Below are positions 3,652-16,925 of a stretch of DNA of 20,394 nucleotides, piece by piece. The stretch lies in IMG/VR virus record IMGVR_UViG_3300031578_004030, positions 1-20,394 of that record; one strand, given 5' to 3'. Source of the DNA: a virus. Position 1 is the stretch's first letter, and each line of letters begins with the position of its first letter. The notes beneath the pieces are model-generated. The model did not search any database. It was not told the origin of the DNA and saw only the letters and a program-made list of their open reading frames with translations. Position numbers and translations under genes: made by a program.

Positions 3652-4185
3652 TTACGATTGAGGCGGTTGAGCCGCTCCGGATGGAACAGATTCCGGTGAT
3701 CTAAACGGCTCCGGTAACGGCGTTCGTTTTGGGGTAATGCGTACCGGGATCGGTTCCCGCCTCGGGCAGTCTTCGCACACCTCGAATGGGATTTTTCCAT
3801 GCTCGTCGAGTTCGGATTCGGGGTCGCTACATATCGCAACCACCTGGATGCACTCACAAGCCTCCTTGACTACCGTGCTGTACAGTCGCATTCGGCACGA
3901 TTTCCATAGCGGTCGGAAGAGCCATGCATCTTCTGTATCGCGTTCGTACCCCTCAATAGGGCCCGGCGGCTCCCAGTCGTCGGGCCTTTTTTCGTATTGA
4001 ATGGACCCATCCGGTAGGAATTGCCCCTTCTGATAATCAGCCGGCAGGGTGTGTTGCATCATCGCGAGATGCAGTTCAGGCGGGCCCCCGGTGTACACGA
4101 CCCATCCGATTGATGCCAGCCCCTCGGGAGCGATAACATCAGGGATGCCACTTGGTGTCTGTTCTGGGCAGTCTTTACAAGCCAT
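3652..4185 (-). CDS. Cys-rich tandem paralogue A (177 aa, unknown function)
   Basis: Start chosen at ATG 4185: it shares a base with the upstream stop (TGATG) and has GGAGA about 8 nt upstream; an in-frame alternative at 4212 lacks this support. The protein begins MACKDCPEQ. It contains the motif shared with the next two genes (DG-I-Y-K, then WEPP, a GY-R turn, then DAW) and a Cys set C..CEC...C followed by C-x2-CP. The paired cysteines suggest metal binding; no family is recognised. The C-terminal ~35 residues are Pro-rich and probably flexible. It is the last gene of the leftward operon. A rightward terminator-like hairpin lies within its coding sequence. Confidence 0.7.
   Translation of the reverse strand: MACKDCPEQTPSGIPDVIAPEGLASIGWVVYTGGPPELHLAMMQHTLPADYQKGQFLPDGSIQYEKRPDDWEPPGPIEGYERDTEDAWLFRPLWKSCRMRLYSTVVKEACECIQVVAICSDPESELDEHGKIPFEVCEDCPRREPIPVRITPKRTPLPEPFRSPESVPSGAAQPPQS
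3960..3992 (+). terminator. Rightward terminator-like hairpin inside antisense gene
   Basis: On the plus strand 3960-3970 pairs with 3976-3986 (11 bp including two G-U pairs) around the 5-nt loop TCCCA, followed by six T residues at 3987-3992. It would end rightward transcripts that pass the metallopeptidase gene, about 370 nt beyond its stop. It also encodes the KRPDDWEPP segment of the leftward gene, so the structure may be a by-product of coding. Confidence 0.5.
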
Positions 4186-4475
4186 CAAGTCTTCTCCGGG
4201 CAACTCTGACACTGAGGTGGTTGAACTGTGCCGTGCAGGTCACAGTGATACGTGATTTTGGCAGCCCCGCATGCTGAATAGGTGATACTCTGTGTCCGGT
4301 GCCCACAGGCATCCAGGATTGGGAGGAACACCCATGCATCCGGTGACTTTAGGTTGTCGCTCTTCCGCTTGTAGCCAGCGGGCGCCAGGGGAGGTTCCCA
4401 TCCCCGCTTTGGGTAGGCAATCACGCCGTCTTTGAAGATTCGTGGGCGGGCGTGTGTCAGCGGTTGTTCTGGCAT
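4185..4475 (-). CDS. Cys-rich tandem paralogue B (96 aa, unknown function)
   Basis: Start chosen at ATG 4475, giving a 19-nt overlap with the upstream gene; a TTG at 4547 in the same frame would add 24 residues lying wholly inside that gene and is less likely. There is no strong Shine-Dalgarno, so translation is probably coupled. The protein is almost entirely the shared module: DGVIAYPKRGWEPP, GYKRKSDNLKSPDAW, then C-GHR, C, C-DLHG and C-x2-CPE. The C-x2-H-R / C / C-x2-HG / C-x2-C order resembles small zinc-ribbon-like proteins that I associate with Planctomycetota (inference). Metal binding is likely; role unknown. Compared with copies A and C it lacks extra terminal domains and may be the minimal unit. 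Confidence 0.68.
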   Translation of the reverse strand: MPEQPLTHARPRIFKDGVIAYPKRGWEPPLAPAGYKRKSDNLKSPDAWVFLPILDACGHRTQSITYSACGAAKITYHCDLHGTVQPPQCQSCPEKT

Positions 4476-11906: not shown

Positions 11907-12641
11907 ATGTCGAAAGAAACTGCGCTCGTCCCTGTTGATTTCACCCAGCTTCCCGCTACCCAACGTGGTGACGACAAAGCATACGGTGAACTGTCCCAGG
12001 GCAACGAGTTCCTTGGCCGCCTCCAGCTTTTCTCCAAGGGTGGTGCGATCAACAAGGGCCTCATCAAGCCCGGCCACTGGGGAATCCCTGAGAGTGATGA
12101 AGACATCATCGATCTCGGTGTGAGCATCGATTGCTTGGTGCTCGCTCGACGGCCCAAGGCCCTCGATATGAGCGACAAGGACGCCATCATCGGTAACTAC
12201 GACATGGAGTCGGATGAGTTCAAACGGATCGCCGATGCATCAGCGGGCCAGGACTCCGGTTGCATGTATGGCCCGAGCTTCCTCGTCCTGGAGCGGTCGT
12301 CCGGCCGCCTCCTGGAGTATTTCTGTGGCACCAAGAGCACCCGCTCCGAAGCCAAAAAAATCTACCCCTACCTGCCGCTGACCGCACAGGACATCGTCGC
12401 CAGGAAGCTGGCCGCCGACACGGAGCCGCACGCCCCGCTGCCCTTCACCATGAAGACCAAGCTGGTCGAACGGAAGCATTTCTCCTGGCACGTCCCGGTG
12501 GTCCTGAAGTGCTCGACGCCATTCAAGGCCTTGCCCGAGATGGCCGTGATTGTCAAGGAAATCGAGCGGTTCATCAATCCTCCAGCGGACGGCGTTGAGA
12601 AGGTTCCGGAGAAGGAAGCCGGCAAGCGCCGAGCCCGCTGA
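11907..12641 (+). CDS. Conserved-looking phage protein of unknown function (244 aa)
   Basis: Start ATG 11907 (MSKETALVPVDF) has AAGG about 9 nt upstream; a longer in-frame opening at 11751 lies inside the ParB-like gene and is rejected. Notable segments are FLGRLQLFSKGGAINKG, GHWGIPESDEDIIDLG, LARRPKALDMS, DSGCMYGPSFLV and FTMKTKLVERKHFSWHVPVV. The mixed alpha/beta composition without signal or membrane segments suggests a soluble protein, and the C terminus is charged (EKEAGKRRAR). The sequence looks like a family I have seen uncharacterised in phage genomes, but I cannot name it. Position between ParB-like and helicase genes hints at a DNA-related role, for example nucleic-acid binding; this is inference. 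A terminator follows. Confidence 0.75.
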   Translation: MSKETALVPVDFTQLPATQRGDDKAYGELSQGNEFLGRLQLFSKGGAINKGLIKPGHWGIPESDEDIIDLGVSIDCLVLARRPKALDMSDKDAIIGNYDMESDEFKRIADASAGQDSGCMYGPSFLVLERSSGRLLEYFCGTKSTRSEAKKIYPYLPLTAQDIVARKLAADTEPHAPLPFTMKTKLVERKHFSWHVPVVLKCSTPFKALPEMAVIVKEIERFINPPADGVEKVPEKEAGKRRAR

Positions 12642-12668: not shown

Positions 12669-12690
12669 CCCCGACAAAACGGGGCGTTTC
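12669..12690 (+). terminator. Intrinsic terminator after the unknown phage gene
   Basis: CCCCG (12669-12673) pairs with CGGGG (12680-12684) around ACAAAA, followed by CGTTTCTT. The stem is short but GC-rich. It begins 28 nt after the stop and separates that gene from the structured RNA region. Confidence 0.65.
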
Positions 12691-12726: not shown

Positions 12727-12864
12727 CGACCTGCTGGATTAGTTTCTAGGGCGAGTCCTGTCCAAGGGAACCCAGCGTAGGTGTGCCTTGGTCTCAATCT
12801 GTTTGTATTCCCTTGTGCGACGGCAAAAGGACTCACAGATGAAGGGGACGCTGGGAGCAGGTCG
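12727..12864 (+). ncRNA. Putative pseudoknotted structured RNA, class unknown
   Basis: Four exact complementary pairs occupy this 138-nt non-coding stretch. P1: 12727-12735 with 12856-12864 (9 bp, CGACCTGCT/AGCAGGTCG). P2: 12753-12759 with 12828-12834 (7 bp). P3: 12763-12770 with 12808-12815 (8 bp, CAAGGGAA/TTCCCTTG). P4: 12771-12778 with 12848-12855 (8 bp, CCCAGCGT/ACGCTGGG). P2 and P3 are nested inside P1; P4 starts directly after the P3 5' strand and closes directly before the P1 3' strand, crossing P2 and P3, so it makes a pseudoknot. Small hairpins may fill the joins (12779-12788; 12816-12825). TTTT follows P1. Strand is inferred from the flanking genes. It may be a free RNA or a leader of the small peptide gene 26 nt downstream. 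I matched no known riboswitch or ribozyme. Confidence 0.65.
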
Positions 12865-12889: not shown

Positions 12890-13021
12890 ATGAAGATCAT
12901 TTCGTTTGTCTTGAAGTCCAAGTGGACTTACGTGATCGCCCTGGCTTTGGGTGGGCTCATCAGTGGAAGCACTTACTCCGATCGGATCGTGCAAGCGATC
13001 CAGACATTGATCGGCCCGTAA
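12890..13021 (+). CDS. Small single-span membrane peptide (43 aa)
   Basis: ATG 12890 follows GAGGT at good spacing (GAGGTAATCCG). The peptide begins MKIISFVLKSK, then has a hydrophobic stretch WTYVIALALGGLISG of about 15-18 residues, and ends DRIVQAIQTLIGP. This pattern fits one inner-membrane helix with a basic N-terminal flank. It is too short for family assignment. It lies between the structured RNA and a strong terminator, so RNA and peptide may form one transcription unit. Possible roles include a membrane-acting phage peptide, a toxin-like peptide or a holin-like peptide; none is shown. Confidence 0.65.
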   Translation: MKIISFVLKSKWTYVIALALGGLISGSTYSDRIVQAIQTLIGP

Positions 13022-13053
13022 GTTCAATCCTAGTCAACGCGAGCATCCGACTG

Positions 13054-13093
13054 GGCCGGCAGTGGCTCGACGCCACTGTCGGCCTTTTTCTTT
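13054..13093 (+). terminator. Strong intrinsic terminator
   Basis: A 13-bp stem (13054-13066 with 13072-13084, one G-U) around TCGAC is followed by TTTTTCTTT. It ends the RNA/small-peptide unit 33 nt after the stop codon. Confidence 0.92.
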
Positions 13094-13141: not shown

Positions 13142-13666
13142 ATGAATCCAAGCGCAATCCTAATCCAACAACCAGCAGTCGATTGGTCGACGTTTCTTGA
13201 TCTCGCTGACCAGGCACTCGGGTACAGCCCGAGCGCGGCGTCGGACGCGAGTGGTATCCAATTGCACGATGCTGAGAAGTTCATGTCCTGCCTGGCAGCC
13301 ATGAAGGACCAGAATGCGCCGGTCGGTTTACCACCACATCTGATGACGCATGTGTCCTTCAGCATACTGGTTGGAGCCAACAATCGAGACATGCAGGATA
13401 TCCTGGAATACTGTTCCGGGATGCCGTTCGTGATCGCCAACACGATCGTGCGTGGTGTCCAGATCGCCGTGGTCACTGGCACCCTGGCTCAGTGGCGGGT
13501 CGCCGTTATCTCCGGTTGCCAGTTTTCTGTTGATTCGATGGTTCGCGCCCTCTTCAACCATATTCTCAGTCTCTTTGAGGCTGTCAACCTGAGTGTTTGG
13601 AAAGACTGCGAACGGAAGGAGTCTGGGGCTACCTTCCTACTGGAAGACCACAGGGGTCGCCTATGA
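13142..13666 (+). CDS. Hypothetical phage protein (174 aa)
   Basis: ATG 13142 has only a weak purine-rich site upstream (GACGAGTGAAC). The protein is soluble-looking, with several amphipathic helices: an N-terminal half MNPSAILIQQ...LADQALGYSPS, then HLMTHVSFSILVGANN, MPFVIANTIVRGVQIAVVTG and FNHILSLFEAVNLS. No catalytic motif is recognised. The stop overlaps the next ATG (ATGA, 13663-13666), which indicates translational coupling to the DUF2061 membrane protein and a possible shared role. Confidence 0.7.
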   Translation: MNPSAILIQQPAVDWSTFLDLADQALGYSPSAASDASGIQLHDAEKFMSCLAAMKDQNAPVGLPPHLMTHVSFSILVGANNRDMQDILEYCSGMPFVIANTIVRGVQIAVVTGTLAQWRVAVISGCQFSVDSMVRALFNHILSLFEAVNLSVWKDCERKESGATFLLEDHRGRL

Positions 13667-13886: not shown

Positions 13887-16800
13887 ATGTCTCAAGTTCT
13901 TGACATCAAACTCATCCACGAAACCCAAAGCGGGAGTCTGGTTCGGAGCCCTGCTAAGATCGAGATTGCTGACGGTCGCATCTTCTTCCTGAAGTCCGCC
14001 TTTGCTTTGAAGGACGAGATCAAATCAATGGCTGGCTCCCGATGGCACGGCTACGATGACGAGAACCCCCACAAAATTTGGTCCGTCACGGATTGCCCAC
14101 GGAACCACTTCCAACTCGGCTACCTCATGGGTGAGGATGTCTACGAGTGGTTCGAGCGTGATCTGATTCGTCACGAGTACCGCCAATACCAACTGAAGGG
14201 CGTCGATACTGATCCGATGCCCCACCAGTTCGATTTGGCGGACTCCGGCCTCACTTACCACTACCAAATCTGGGGTGCCGAGATGGGCACGGGCAAAGGT
14301 GGCCTACCTAGTACGAAGGTTGCTACTCCAACTGGCTGGACCACTTTGGGTGAAATTCAGGTGGGTGACGAAGTCATTAACCCTGAAGGTGGGACAACCA
14401 AGGTTAAAGGCGTTTACCACCGGGGCCGGATGGAGATGTTTCGAGTAACGTTTTCGGATAACTCATCCACTGTGTGTAGTCGGGACCATTTGTGGAACGT
14501 GCGTTCGGCGTGCCGGAAGCATCGTGGGATGTCTTGCGAAGTGTTGGAGTTGCAGGAGATTCTTTCGCGTGGGCTCAAGGGAGTGGCGAACGGCAATGCT
14601 AAACACTACATCCCGATGGTGAACTCGGTTGAATATCATAAGGCCCCGTTGCCGGTACATCCGTACCTCTTAGGGTACATCCTTGGTAATGGTGGATTGA
14701 GCGGGTATACCAATATCCTCTCTATTCCGGACACCGAGACCGTTGAACGTCTTAATTCGATGATGTTGACCCCTCTCAAGCAAAAGAAGAACTCACAGTA
14801 CGACTACATTATCAAGGACGATGGGGTCAATCGCTTCATTGAGGAAGCTGGCCTAAGGGGTCTAAGATCACACGAAAAGCATCTTACTACTGAATACCTG
14901 TTTAGTGCAGTCGAGAATCGGATTGCGATTCTCCAAGGATTGTGTGACTCCGATGGCCATGCAGTTCAGACTTCGGGAGTCGAGTATTCAACCACCTCAC
15001 CTGACCTATGCAGCAGCTTTGTCTCACTGGTGCAATCCCTTGGTGGAACATGCCATGTTAGTGAAAGCCGGCCTACCTATACCTACAAAGGTGAGAAACG
15101 GGTTGGACGCTTGGCCTATCGAATCAACGCTTCGTTCCCGTCCACAATTGTCCCTTTTTGGTTGAGTCGAAAGGCTTCACAGTACACGGTGCCTACAAAG
15201 TATGAGCCCACCCGAGCCATTGTGAAAGTGGAATCAATCGGTGAGGAAGAGTGCATCTGTATCGCTGTCGAGGCAGCCAATCAGCTTTATGTGACTGATG
15301 ACTTTATCGTCACCCACAATACTCTGGCGGCCCAGATGGTGATCGAGCACTCTGGTGTCGACTGGTGGTATTGGGTTGGCCCAGCCAGGTCGCTGCCCAA
15401 CATGAAACGAGAGTTTCGACTCTGGGGCTTCGATGAATCAAAGATTCGTATCGATTTCATGTCTTACGAGAAACTCAAACGAGTTGTGGACGAGTGGTCA
15501 CCGGATGGCCCGTTGCCGAGAGGCTTGATCTGTGATGAGTCCAGCCGCTGCAAGACATACAGCAGCCAACGATCGGTAGCCACCCAACTCTTGGCGGATC
15601 GTATCCGGGCGAAGCATCGCTTCGATGGTTACATCATCGAGATGTCGGGAACCCCGAGTCCGAAGAGGCCAACCGACTGGTGGAGCCAATGCGAGATTGC
15701 CTGGCCCGGCTTCCTGCGGGAAGGCAGCGTGAAGGCGTTGGAACAGCGGCTGGCCTTCATGGTCCAGAAAGAGTTTGACTCGGGCACATTCTGGAAAGCC
15801 TCCGGCTGGCGAGACGACGAACGCAAGTGTGCCGTTTGTGGTGAGTTTGAAGAGCACCCGTGCCACACGATGGACAACTTCATGGGGGAGATGGAGGAAT
15901 CGGATGAAGAGTTCCACAAGTTCGAGCCCTCGAAAAATGAAGTCGGCTTCATGTACGAGCGTCTCAAAGGGCTGGTGGTCATCAAGCACAAGAAGGACTG
16001 CCTCTCACTGCCCGACAAGCGTTATCGCCGAGTCATCTGCAAACCGAAGGCGTCTGTTCTTCGCGTTGCCAAAGCTCTGGTTGATGCTGCTGAGAATGCC
16101 GTCACCGGCATGACAATGCTGAGGGAACTCAGCGACGGTTTCCAGTACCGTGAAGAGCCTGATGGCAAGATTCCCTGCAACCATTGCAAGGATGCCTGTG
16201 GTGAAGTCGACCAGTGGTTTATTCCGGGCGAAGAGAATCGCACGTTCTCCAACATCGACATGCTCGAAAAAGAATTGGTGGCCCGCTTGGAGAAGCGGAG
16301 AGTCAAGTGTCCGAAGTGCAAGGGCACGGGCGAAGTCATCAAGATGAAGCGGTATGCACGCGAGGTGCCATGTCCCAAGGAGGGGGCTCTGCGAGACCTG
16401 CTCGAAGAAAACGAAGAGACCGGCCGCCTGGTGATCTTTGCCGGGTTCACCGGAAGCGTTGATCGTTGCTGTAACATCTGCCGCAAAGAAGGCTGGTCGG
16501 TTGTCCGCTGTGACGGACGTGGCTACCAGGTGACTCTGGCGGATGGATCAACGGTCACCGGTGCTGAAGCTCTCGACTACTGGGCTGACTTGGAGAACAA
16601 CCCCCGGGTTGCTTTCGTGGCCCACCCGGAGTCCGGTGGTATGTCACTTACGCTGGTAGAGGCCAGGATGGCAGTCTACTGGTCCAATAGCTTCAAACCT
16701 GAGTATCGCACTCAGTCTGAGGATCGTATCCACCGTAAGGGGATGGATGAGAACCTCGGGTGTATGATTGTTGATCTGATCCACCTGCCTACCGACGACC

Positions 16801-16925
16801 GTGCTCTGACAATCATCCGGGAGAACAGGAAGCTCGAACTGATGACGATGGGTGAGGTTTTCCCAGACTTTAACCCTGATGAGGAACCTGTAGATGAAAG
16901 CGCGATGGGGGGCGCCCAGCCATGA
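13887..16925 (+). CDS. SNF2/SF2-type helicase interrupted by an intein (1012 aa precursor)
   Basis: Start ATG 13887 follows AAGGA at 6 nt, three bases after the DUF2061 stop; an ATG at 13857 lies inside that gene. The extein is a superfamily 2 helicase: Walker A MGTGK (133-137) joined after splicing to TLAAQ (479 on), motif II DESS (550-553), motif III MSGTPS, motif V GGMSLT, and motif VI QSEDRIHRKG (943-952). Removing residues 138-478 leaves about 671 residues. Two cysteine clusters look like zinc ribbons: C648-x2-C651 with C659, and C764-x2-C767 with C808-x2-C811. Family members use ATP to translocate on or remodel DNA; in phages they act in replication, recombination or repair. The next gene starts inside its stop codon. 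Confidence 0.9.
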   Translation: MSQVLDIKLIHETQSGSLVRSPAKIEIADGRIFFLKSAFALKDEIKSMAGSRWHGYDDENPHKIWSVTDCPRNHFQLGYLMGEDVYEWFERDLIRHEYRQYQLKGVDTDPMPHQFDLADSGLTYHYQIWGAEMGTGKGGLPSTKVATPTGWTTLGEIQVGDEVINPEGGTTKVKGVYHRGRMEMFRVTFSDNSSTVCSRDHLWNVRSACRKHRGMSCEVLELQEILSRGLKGVANGNAKHYIPMVNSVEYHKAPLPVHPYLLGYILGNGGLSGYTNILSIPDTETVERLNSMMLTPLKQKKNSQYDYIIKDDGVNRFIEEAGLRGLRSHEKHLTTEYLFSAVENRIAILQGLCDSDGHAVQTSGVEYSTTSPDLCSSFVSLVQSLGGTCHVSESRPTYTYKGEKRVGRLAYRINASFPSTIVPFWLSRKASQYTVPTKYEPTRAIVKVESIGEEECICIAVEAANQLYVTDDFIVTHNTLAAQMVIEHSGVDWWYWVGPARSLPNMKREFRLWGFDESKIRIDFMSYEKLKRVVDEWSPDGPLPRGLICDESSRCKTYSSQRSVATQLLADRIRAKHRFDGYIIEMSGTPSPKRPTDWWSQCEIAWPGFLREGSVKALEQRLAFMVQKEFDSGTFWKASGWRDDERKCAVCGEFEEHPCHTMDNFMGEMEESDEEFHKFEPSKNEVGFMYERLKGLVVIKHKKDCLSLPDKRYRRVICKPKASVLRVAKALVDAAENAVTGMTMLRELSDGFQYREEPDGKIPCNHCKDACGEVDQWFIPGEENRTFSNIDMLEKELVARLEKRRVKCPKCKGTGEVIKMKRYAREVPCPKEGALRDLLEENEETGRLVIFAGFTGSVDRCCNICRKEGWSVVRCDGRGYQVTLADGSTVTGAEALDYWADLENNPRVAFVAHPESGGMSLTLVEARMAVYWSNSFKPEYRTQSEDRIHRKGMDENLGCMIVDLIHLPTDDRALTIIRENRKLELMTMGEVFPDFNPDEEPVDESAMGGAQP
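14298..15320 (+). mobile_element. Class 3-type intein with LAGLIDADG endonuclease domain (about 341 aa)
   Basis: The insert splits the helicase P-loop between Lys137 and Thr479. It begins Gly-Gly-Leu-Pro, so it lacks the usual Cys or Ser at position 1; block A continues ATPTGWTTLGEIQVGDEV. Block B ends in RDHLW, with Trp203 two residues after His201. Block F is CICIAV with Cys458 at its fourth position. Block G is IVTHN, with Thr476, His477 and Asn478, followed by Thr+1. Trp/Cys/Thr at these places is the signature of class 3 inteins, which use the block F cysteine as first nucleophile. Two LAGLIDADG motifs are visible: LLGYILGNG (261-269) and LQGLCDSDG (349-357). The first has Asn268 where a catalytic acid is expected. 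Codon use looks more relaxed than in the extein (TTA, CTA, AGA). Confidence 0.9.

Follow-up and report, generated by a model that had tools for sequence, protein, structure and literature searches.

A strongly conserved pseudoknotted RNA family in environmental phages, often located in tRNA arrays

A 138-nt RNA encoded by an IMG/VR virus record of 20,394 bases (the window, i.e., the whole stretch of DNA analysed here) is, on comparative evidence, a member of a real, previously uncatalogued, and strongly conserved RNA family in scattered environmental phages. Comparison of the homologues shows that two crossing helices, PX and P4, form an H-type pseudoknot with a hairpin, P5, in the last loop. 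The new family is nearly confined to phages and often resides in tRNA arrays, and its crossing helices are backed by dozens of compensatory changes. Of the RNAs known from the tRNA-array niche (GOLLD, ROOL, and the theta ribozymes), some are catalytic and the others lack an explanation. The small core of the new RNA, which has about 20 near-invariant bases, also lends itself readily to studies of cleavage, binding, and structure. The features of the locus are listed in Table 1.

Table 1. Features of the RNA locus, with positions counted from the first base of the window.
Feature	Position	Strand	Basis
Gene A, upstream flank, no assigned function	11907..12641	+	served to find relatives
Terminator-like stem 3' of the upstream gene	12669..12684	+	sequence
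Whole structured RNA (138 nt)	12727..12864	+	covariance-model match to the core, and homologues
P1 5' arm, CGACCTGCT (closing helix)	12727..12735	+	exact 9 bp; recurs abutting P4 across most lineages
P2' 5' arm, GGATT (variable hairpin between P1 and PX)	12736..12740	+	weakly supported, putative
P2 5' arm of the preliminary description (partner 12828-12834)	12753..12759	+	not conserved
P2' 3' arm, AGTCC	12754..12758	+	weakly supported
PX 5' arm, CCAAGG	12762..12767	+	covariation
P3 5' arm of the preliminary description (partner 12808-12815)	12763..12770	+	not conserved, overlaps PX
P4 5' arm, CCCAGCGT (crossing PX)	12771..12778	+	covariation
Invariant loop, AGGTGTG	12779..12785	+	identical in 25/25 members; partly fixed by search patterns
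PX 3' arm, CCTTGG	12786..12791	+	covariation
Conserved linker, TCTCA (YCUYA in the family)	12792..12796	+	alignment
P5 5' arm, ATCTGT (local hairpin, loop expanded in the window)	12797..12802	+	covariation
P5 3' arm, ACAGAT	12835..12840	+	covariation
Linker GAAGGGG, joining P5 to P4	12841..12847	+	AAGGGG nearly invariant (n=25); partly fixed by patterns
P4 3' arm, ACGCTGGG	12848..12855	+	covariation
P1 3' arm, AGCAGGTCG	12856..12864	+	directly 3' of the P4 3' arm
43-aa membrane peptide	12890..13021	+	relatives in L065, L067, L003/L009, L046
Terminator 3' of the peptide gene	13053..13085	+	sequence
Gene B, downstream flank, no assigned function	13142..13666	+	flanks the RNA locus

The preliminary description of this segment had proposed a nested core of three helices (P1 enclosing P2 enclosing P3) crossed by P4, which would abut P3 on one side and P1 on the other. 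All four exact pairs, of 9 (P1), 7 (P2), 8 (P3), and 8 bp (P4), are present in the window with zero spacing on both sides of P4, and so are terminator-like stems upstream of the RNA and after the peptide gene. The four inverted repeats of ≥7 bp in the 138-nt segment are more than chance would give, the mean being 0.39 after shuffling; none of 500 dinucleotide shuffles reached four, and 0.3% of the 138-nt windows across the contig did so. The nested MFE fold of the segment is unremarkable (z of -1.08), as expected because the key helices cross. The covariance model matches the window core (12751-12856) with 75 bits and an E-value of 4e-16, the window itself being part of the training set. Neither a sigma-70-like promoter in front of the RNA nor a tRNA was found in the window.

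Gene A has 47 homologous loci in the second scan of IMG/VR. A version of the window RNA preceding a related peptide was found at the locus L007, on the same contig as L065, with the helices P1 GTTACCC/GGGTAAC, P4 CTTGGGGT/ACCCCAAG, and PX CCGAGG/CCTCGG, the last compared with CCAAGG/CCTTGG in the window. Comparing the two revealed PX: P1 and P4 are kept with changed sequence, and the P3 proposed earlier is lost. The first search pattern, derived from these two RNAs (AGGTGTG, CTCAA, and GAAGGGG with free helices), matched 25 contigs. The helices are present in 22 of these, and eight further contigs came from a second pattern that targeted the other motif half. The third, relaxed pattern matched 26 contigs that were all family members already, and the coverage of this collection is therefore good. 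Five pattern matches (L068, L075, L079, L087, and L088) lack the helices and were discarded as chance. The family amounts to 31 phage contigs including the window, plus one contig from a Nitrospira metagenome-assembled genome, the sole match of a stricter pattern over 84,980 prokaryote genomes, where the RNA lies near an actin-like (ParM-type) gene. A search for exact 17-nt matches to the window sequence found none, and a pattern with a longer P5 gap found no members. With blastn, the window and five homologues against isolated phages, as well as one homologue against plasmids, returned nothing convincing, a test limited by the short queries.

In the alignment of 25 sequences, 95.2% of the cells over all 20 pairs are paired and 17 of the 20 pairs have changed on both sides, giving a covariation score of 0.777 as opposed to ≤0.109 with the partners slid. 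The corresponding values for the earlier 17-sequence alignment were 94.9%, 16 of 20, and 0.769 (≤0.14 slid). PX, which the covariance model for search and alignment did not include, is paired in 98.7% of the cells of the larger alignment, with five of six pairs compensated and a score of 0.603 (≤0.102 slid). The respective figures are 92.5% and seven of eight pairs for P4, and 95.5% and five of six pairs for P5 (n=25 for each helix). Several family members come from one clade. Since PX and P4 cross and both covary, the pseudoknot is real. This covariation, together with the absence of an Rfam match, strongly supports the suggestion that the segment encodes a new, truly pseudoknotted phage RNA. 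The pseudoknot frames three near-invariant loops, AGGUGUG, YCUYA, and GAAGGGG. Their invariance is partly built in because the search patterns fixed part of the loops, while PX, P4, P5, and P1 were left free except that the later patterns also fixed two G's within PX. The core measures about 75–105 nt in most members.

P1 abuts P4 without a gap in most lineages despite quite different sequences (e.g., TACCCACC, TATTACAAA, ACGTGCGC, and CATCGAGG), with a combined p of 3e-12 in which the members of one clade are not independent. This comparison shows that P1 closes the molecule, end to end with P4, in most lineages. A further hairpin between P1 and PX, P2', is weakly supported; it is seen in many members (combined p of 0.003, and 0.80 for the window alone). 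In four members (L066, L070, L085, and L090), a hairpin lies between P4 and P1 instead of between P1 and PX. It takes the form of a canonical tRNA T arm in L090, where a 9-bp acceptor-like stem lies above it, and is T-arm-like in the three others. In L065 and L067, both linked to the peptide, the PX 5' segment is tandemly duplicated just before PX.

Among the helices proposed at the outset, the comparison bears out P1, P4, and their abutment, but P2 and P3 are not conserved in the homologues. The core consists of PX crossing P4, with the hairpin P5, instead of the nested P1, P2, and P3. The 5' arms of the earlier P2 and P3 overlap conserved helices, and both helices were rejected because their 3' partners sit in the P5 loop that the homologues lack: the loop is long in the window and short or different elsewhere. 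The P5 loop of the window (12803-12834) is complementary to 12753-12770, i.e., to the 5' side of these two helices. It is possible that the loop could invade PX and P2', resulting in an alternative fold particular to the window.

The preliminary description could not match the segment to the known RNA classes it considered. No Rfam 15 family at the gathering threshold overlaps the RNA in the window or in the homologues, and at E-values up to 10 the window gave only a weak snoRNA match outside the RNA. No description of the RNA was found in the literature searched (mostly open-access texts). Judged on Rfam 15 and the open-access literature, the novelty of the RNA is strongly supported, and it concerns the family, not the mechanism. 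The preQ1-II and SAM-II classes of riboswitches are H-type pseudoknots with conserved loops. The new RNA is alike in its H-type pseudoknot but comes without an Rfam match or a consistent downstream gene; rather than holding a constant place before functionally related genes, as a riboswitch or leader would, it is followed by features including tRNA and tmRNA.

The array context is shared with tRNA and tmRNA (RF00005 and RF00023), and L090 has both the T arm and the acceptor-like stem. However, the new RNA has no anticodon loop, tag reading frame, or covariance-model score, and the T arm is lacking in most members. We rejected both identities: ARAGORN and Rfam call no tRNA at the RNA, and no tmRNA is called there even though a separate one adjoins it in L058, L073, and L078. 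GOLLD and ROOL are likewise structured phage RNAs with pseudoknots, often near tRNA islands, but they are several times larger (GOLLD often >800 nt vs. 138 nt in the window; PMC12286853). Neither family model matches the new RNA and the size is wrong, and this identity was also rejected.

The RNA lies within arrays of 30, 36, 37, 26, 12, and 7 tRNAs (L072, L082-L084, L086, and L089) and is on the same strand as the tRNAs or tmRNA wherever they are close. In L072, the 5' arm of P1 starts immediately after the CCA of tRNA-Met and tRNA-Thr begins 6 nt past P1, and the tmRNA of L058, L073, and L078 begins 5 nt past P1. Such positions next to the ends of tRNAs and tmRNA suggest that tRNA-type processing could release the RNA. 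Within 5 kb of about half of the representative loci, several of which were fetched as short sequences, neither a tRNA nor a tmRNA was recognised. Away from these genes, the RNA precedes gene B, the 43-aa peptide, or unrelated ORFs.

We lean towards a stand-alone phage noncoding RNA that would be cut from tRNA-type transcripts and act in trans, which we regard as somewhat probable. It would share a transcript with tRNA, tmRNA, or tRNA-like genes or, as in the window, with an adjoining phage gene. Processing of the tRNA type would set the ends of the RNA at P1, which would hold the molecule closed, and the rigid core would act in trans during infection as a binding site for a translation or tRNA-processing factor, either as an effector or as a decoy. 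The invariant bases cluster in the three loops joined by the pseudoknot, suggesting a probable active or binding surface. The context agrees best with a function in trans in translation or tRNA biology; an analogous case is GOLLD, which shares this niche and is reported to bind ribosomes (PMC12286853). It is conceivable, though short of probable, that the family represents a new phage RNA machine, a compact pseudoknot sometimes set in a tRNA-like body, which would either cleave itself as a new ribozyme or act in trans on host translation or tRNA-targeting enzymes.

Alternatively, the RNA might be a cis-acting leader, such as a riboswitch or a protein-binding element, for the next gene, e.g., the 43-aa peptide or gene B, which we consider unlikely. 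At about half of the loci an ORF starts ≤60 nt downstream of the RNA, and a leader role is therefore possible there. ORFs start 10–40 nt past P4 in the window, L065, L067, the L055 clade, L056, L062, and L076, and in the L055 clade the 3' arm of P1 occupies the expected position of the ribosome-binding site. However, L072 has a tRNA and L058 a tmRNA as the next gene, further members are located among tRNAs, and the downstream ORFs are unrelated to each other. The earlier suggestion that the RNA controls the peptide fails as a general role. Relatives of the peptide accompany the RNA in L065 and L067 and occur without it in L003/L009 and L046, and the RNA for its part has tRNAs, tmRNA, or unrelated genes as neighbours where the peptide is absent; the peptide pair used as a search probe recovered only the already known relative. 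Given the varying downstream genes and the absence of the RNA from two of the five peptide loci, it does not serve in general as the leader of the peptide.

A self-cleaving ribozyme of HDV-like/theta topology processing the tRNA-array transcripts appears quite improbable. In such a ribozyme, PX would stand for P1, P4 for P2, P5 for P4, and an AGG:YCU contact for P1.1. The new RNA resembles HDV-like ribozymes in the strand order of its crossing helices, in its small size, and in its proximity to phage tRNAs, a niche shared by the theta ribozymes (PMC10879173). PX and P4 cross and covary as P1 and P2 would, the unpaired core is conserved and framed by variable helices, and the second, P1.1-like contact is no more than possible, its bases being invariant. 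However, the P3 helix between the 5' strand of P2 and the 3' strand of P1 is absent: the P4 5' arm and the PX 3' arm are separated by only 7–8 nt, mostly AGGUGUG, in all 25 members. Most members have U where the catalytic C would be, at the first position of J4/2, and this C-to-U change inactivates HDV-like ribozymes with no known rescue (PMC10879173). Membership of the HDV-like/theta class was rejected on these two grounds. Moreover, the new RNA has an outer closing helix, P1, and no sequence match to the class, the Rfam ribozyme models do not match it, and PX does not adjoin a tRNA 3' end; the tRNA in L072 ends 47 nt before PX. Cleavage achieved in some other way is conceivable.

The interval between genes A and B varies strongly among relatives, which carry tRNAs, tmRNA, tRNA-like RNAs, or other short conserved RNAs there. 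As judged from these loci, phages exchange various unrelated small structured RNAs at this hotspot. The segment could instead serve the replication, packaging, or recombination of the phage, as a DNA- or RNA-level element that occurs in such hotspots by chance. This would agree with the replacement of the RNA by other small RNAs at this variable site and with the frequent recombination for which tRNA loci are known. We consider such an element very improbable, as the RNA shares the strand of nearby tRNAs and carries compensatory changes in its crossing helices, which mean that a single-stranded RNA structure is selected.

The A–B interval contains a second short conserved RNA (ACACCCGCYGCACCGCUCCCG..CGGUGACGUGCAUCAUGGGCGGGU; L012, L018, L022, L023, L029, L040, L041, L043, L044, and L050) with a compensated outer helix (ACUCGC/GCGAGU, ACCUGC/GCAGGU) and no Rfam match in the loci scanned. 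The tRNA-like RNAs of the interval (L012, L015, L024, and L031; also L025, L027, L028, L033, L035, and L038) comprise an acceptor stem, a T arm, and a long anticodon arm containing CGAGCACAC..CUCG, and Rfam calls no tRNA for them in the loci scanned. In the tRNA arrays of L083 and L086, the RNA is followed by a conserved segment, AAACTGAAACTGCCGAGGGCACGGCTGTAAAACGGTGAAACTCCGATG, which may be another small RNA. L007 has a long GC-rich, structured-looking noncoding stretch (4023-4310) between the peptide and gene B. Further downstream in the window, at 13890-16922, a helicase gene contains an in-frame intein bearing a LAGLIDADG domain.
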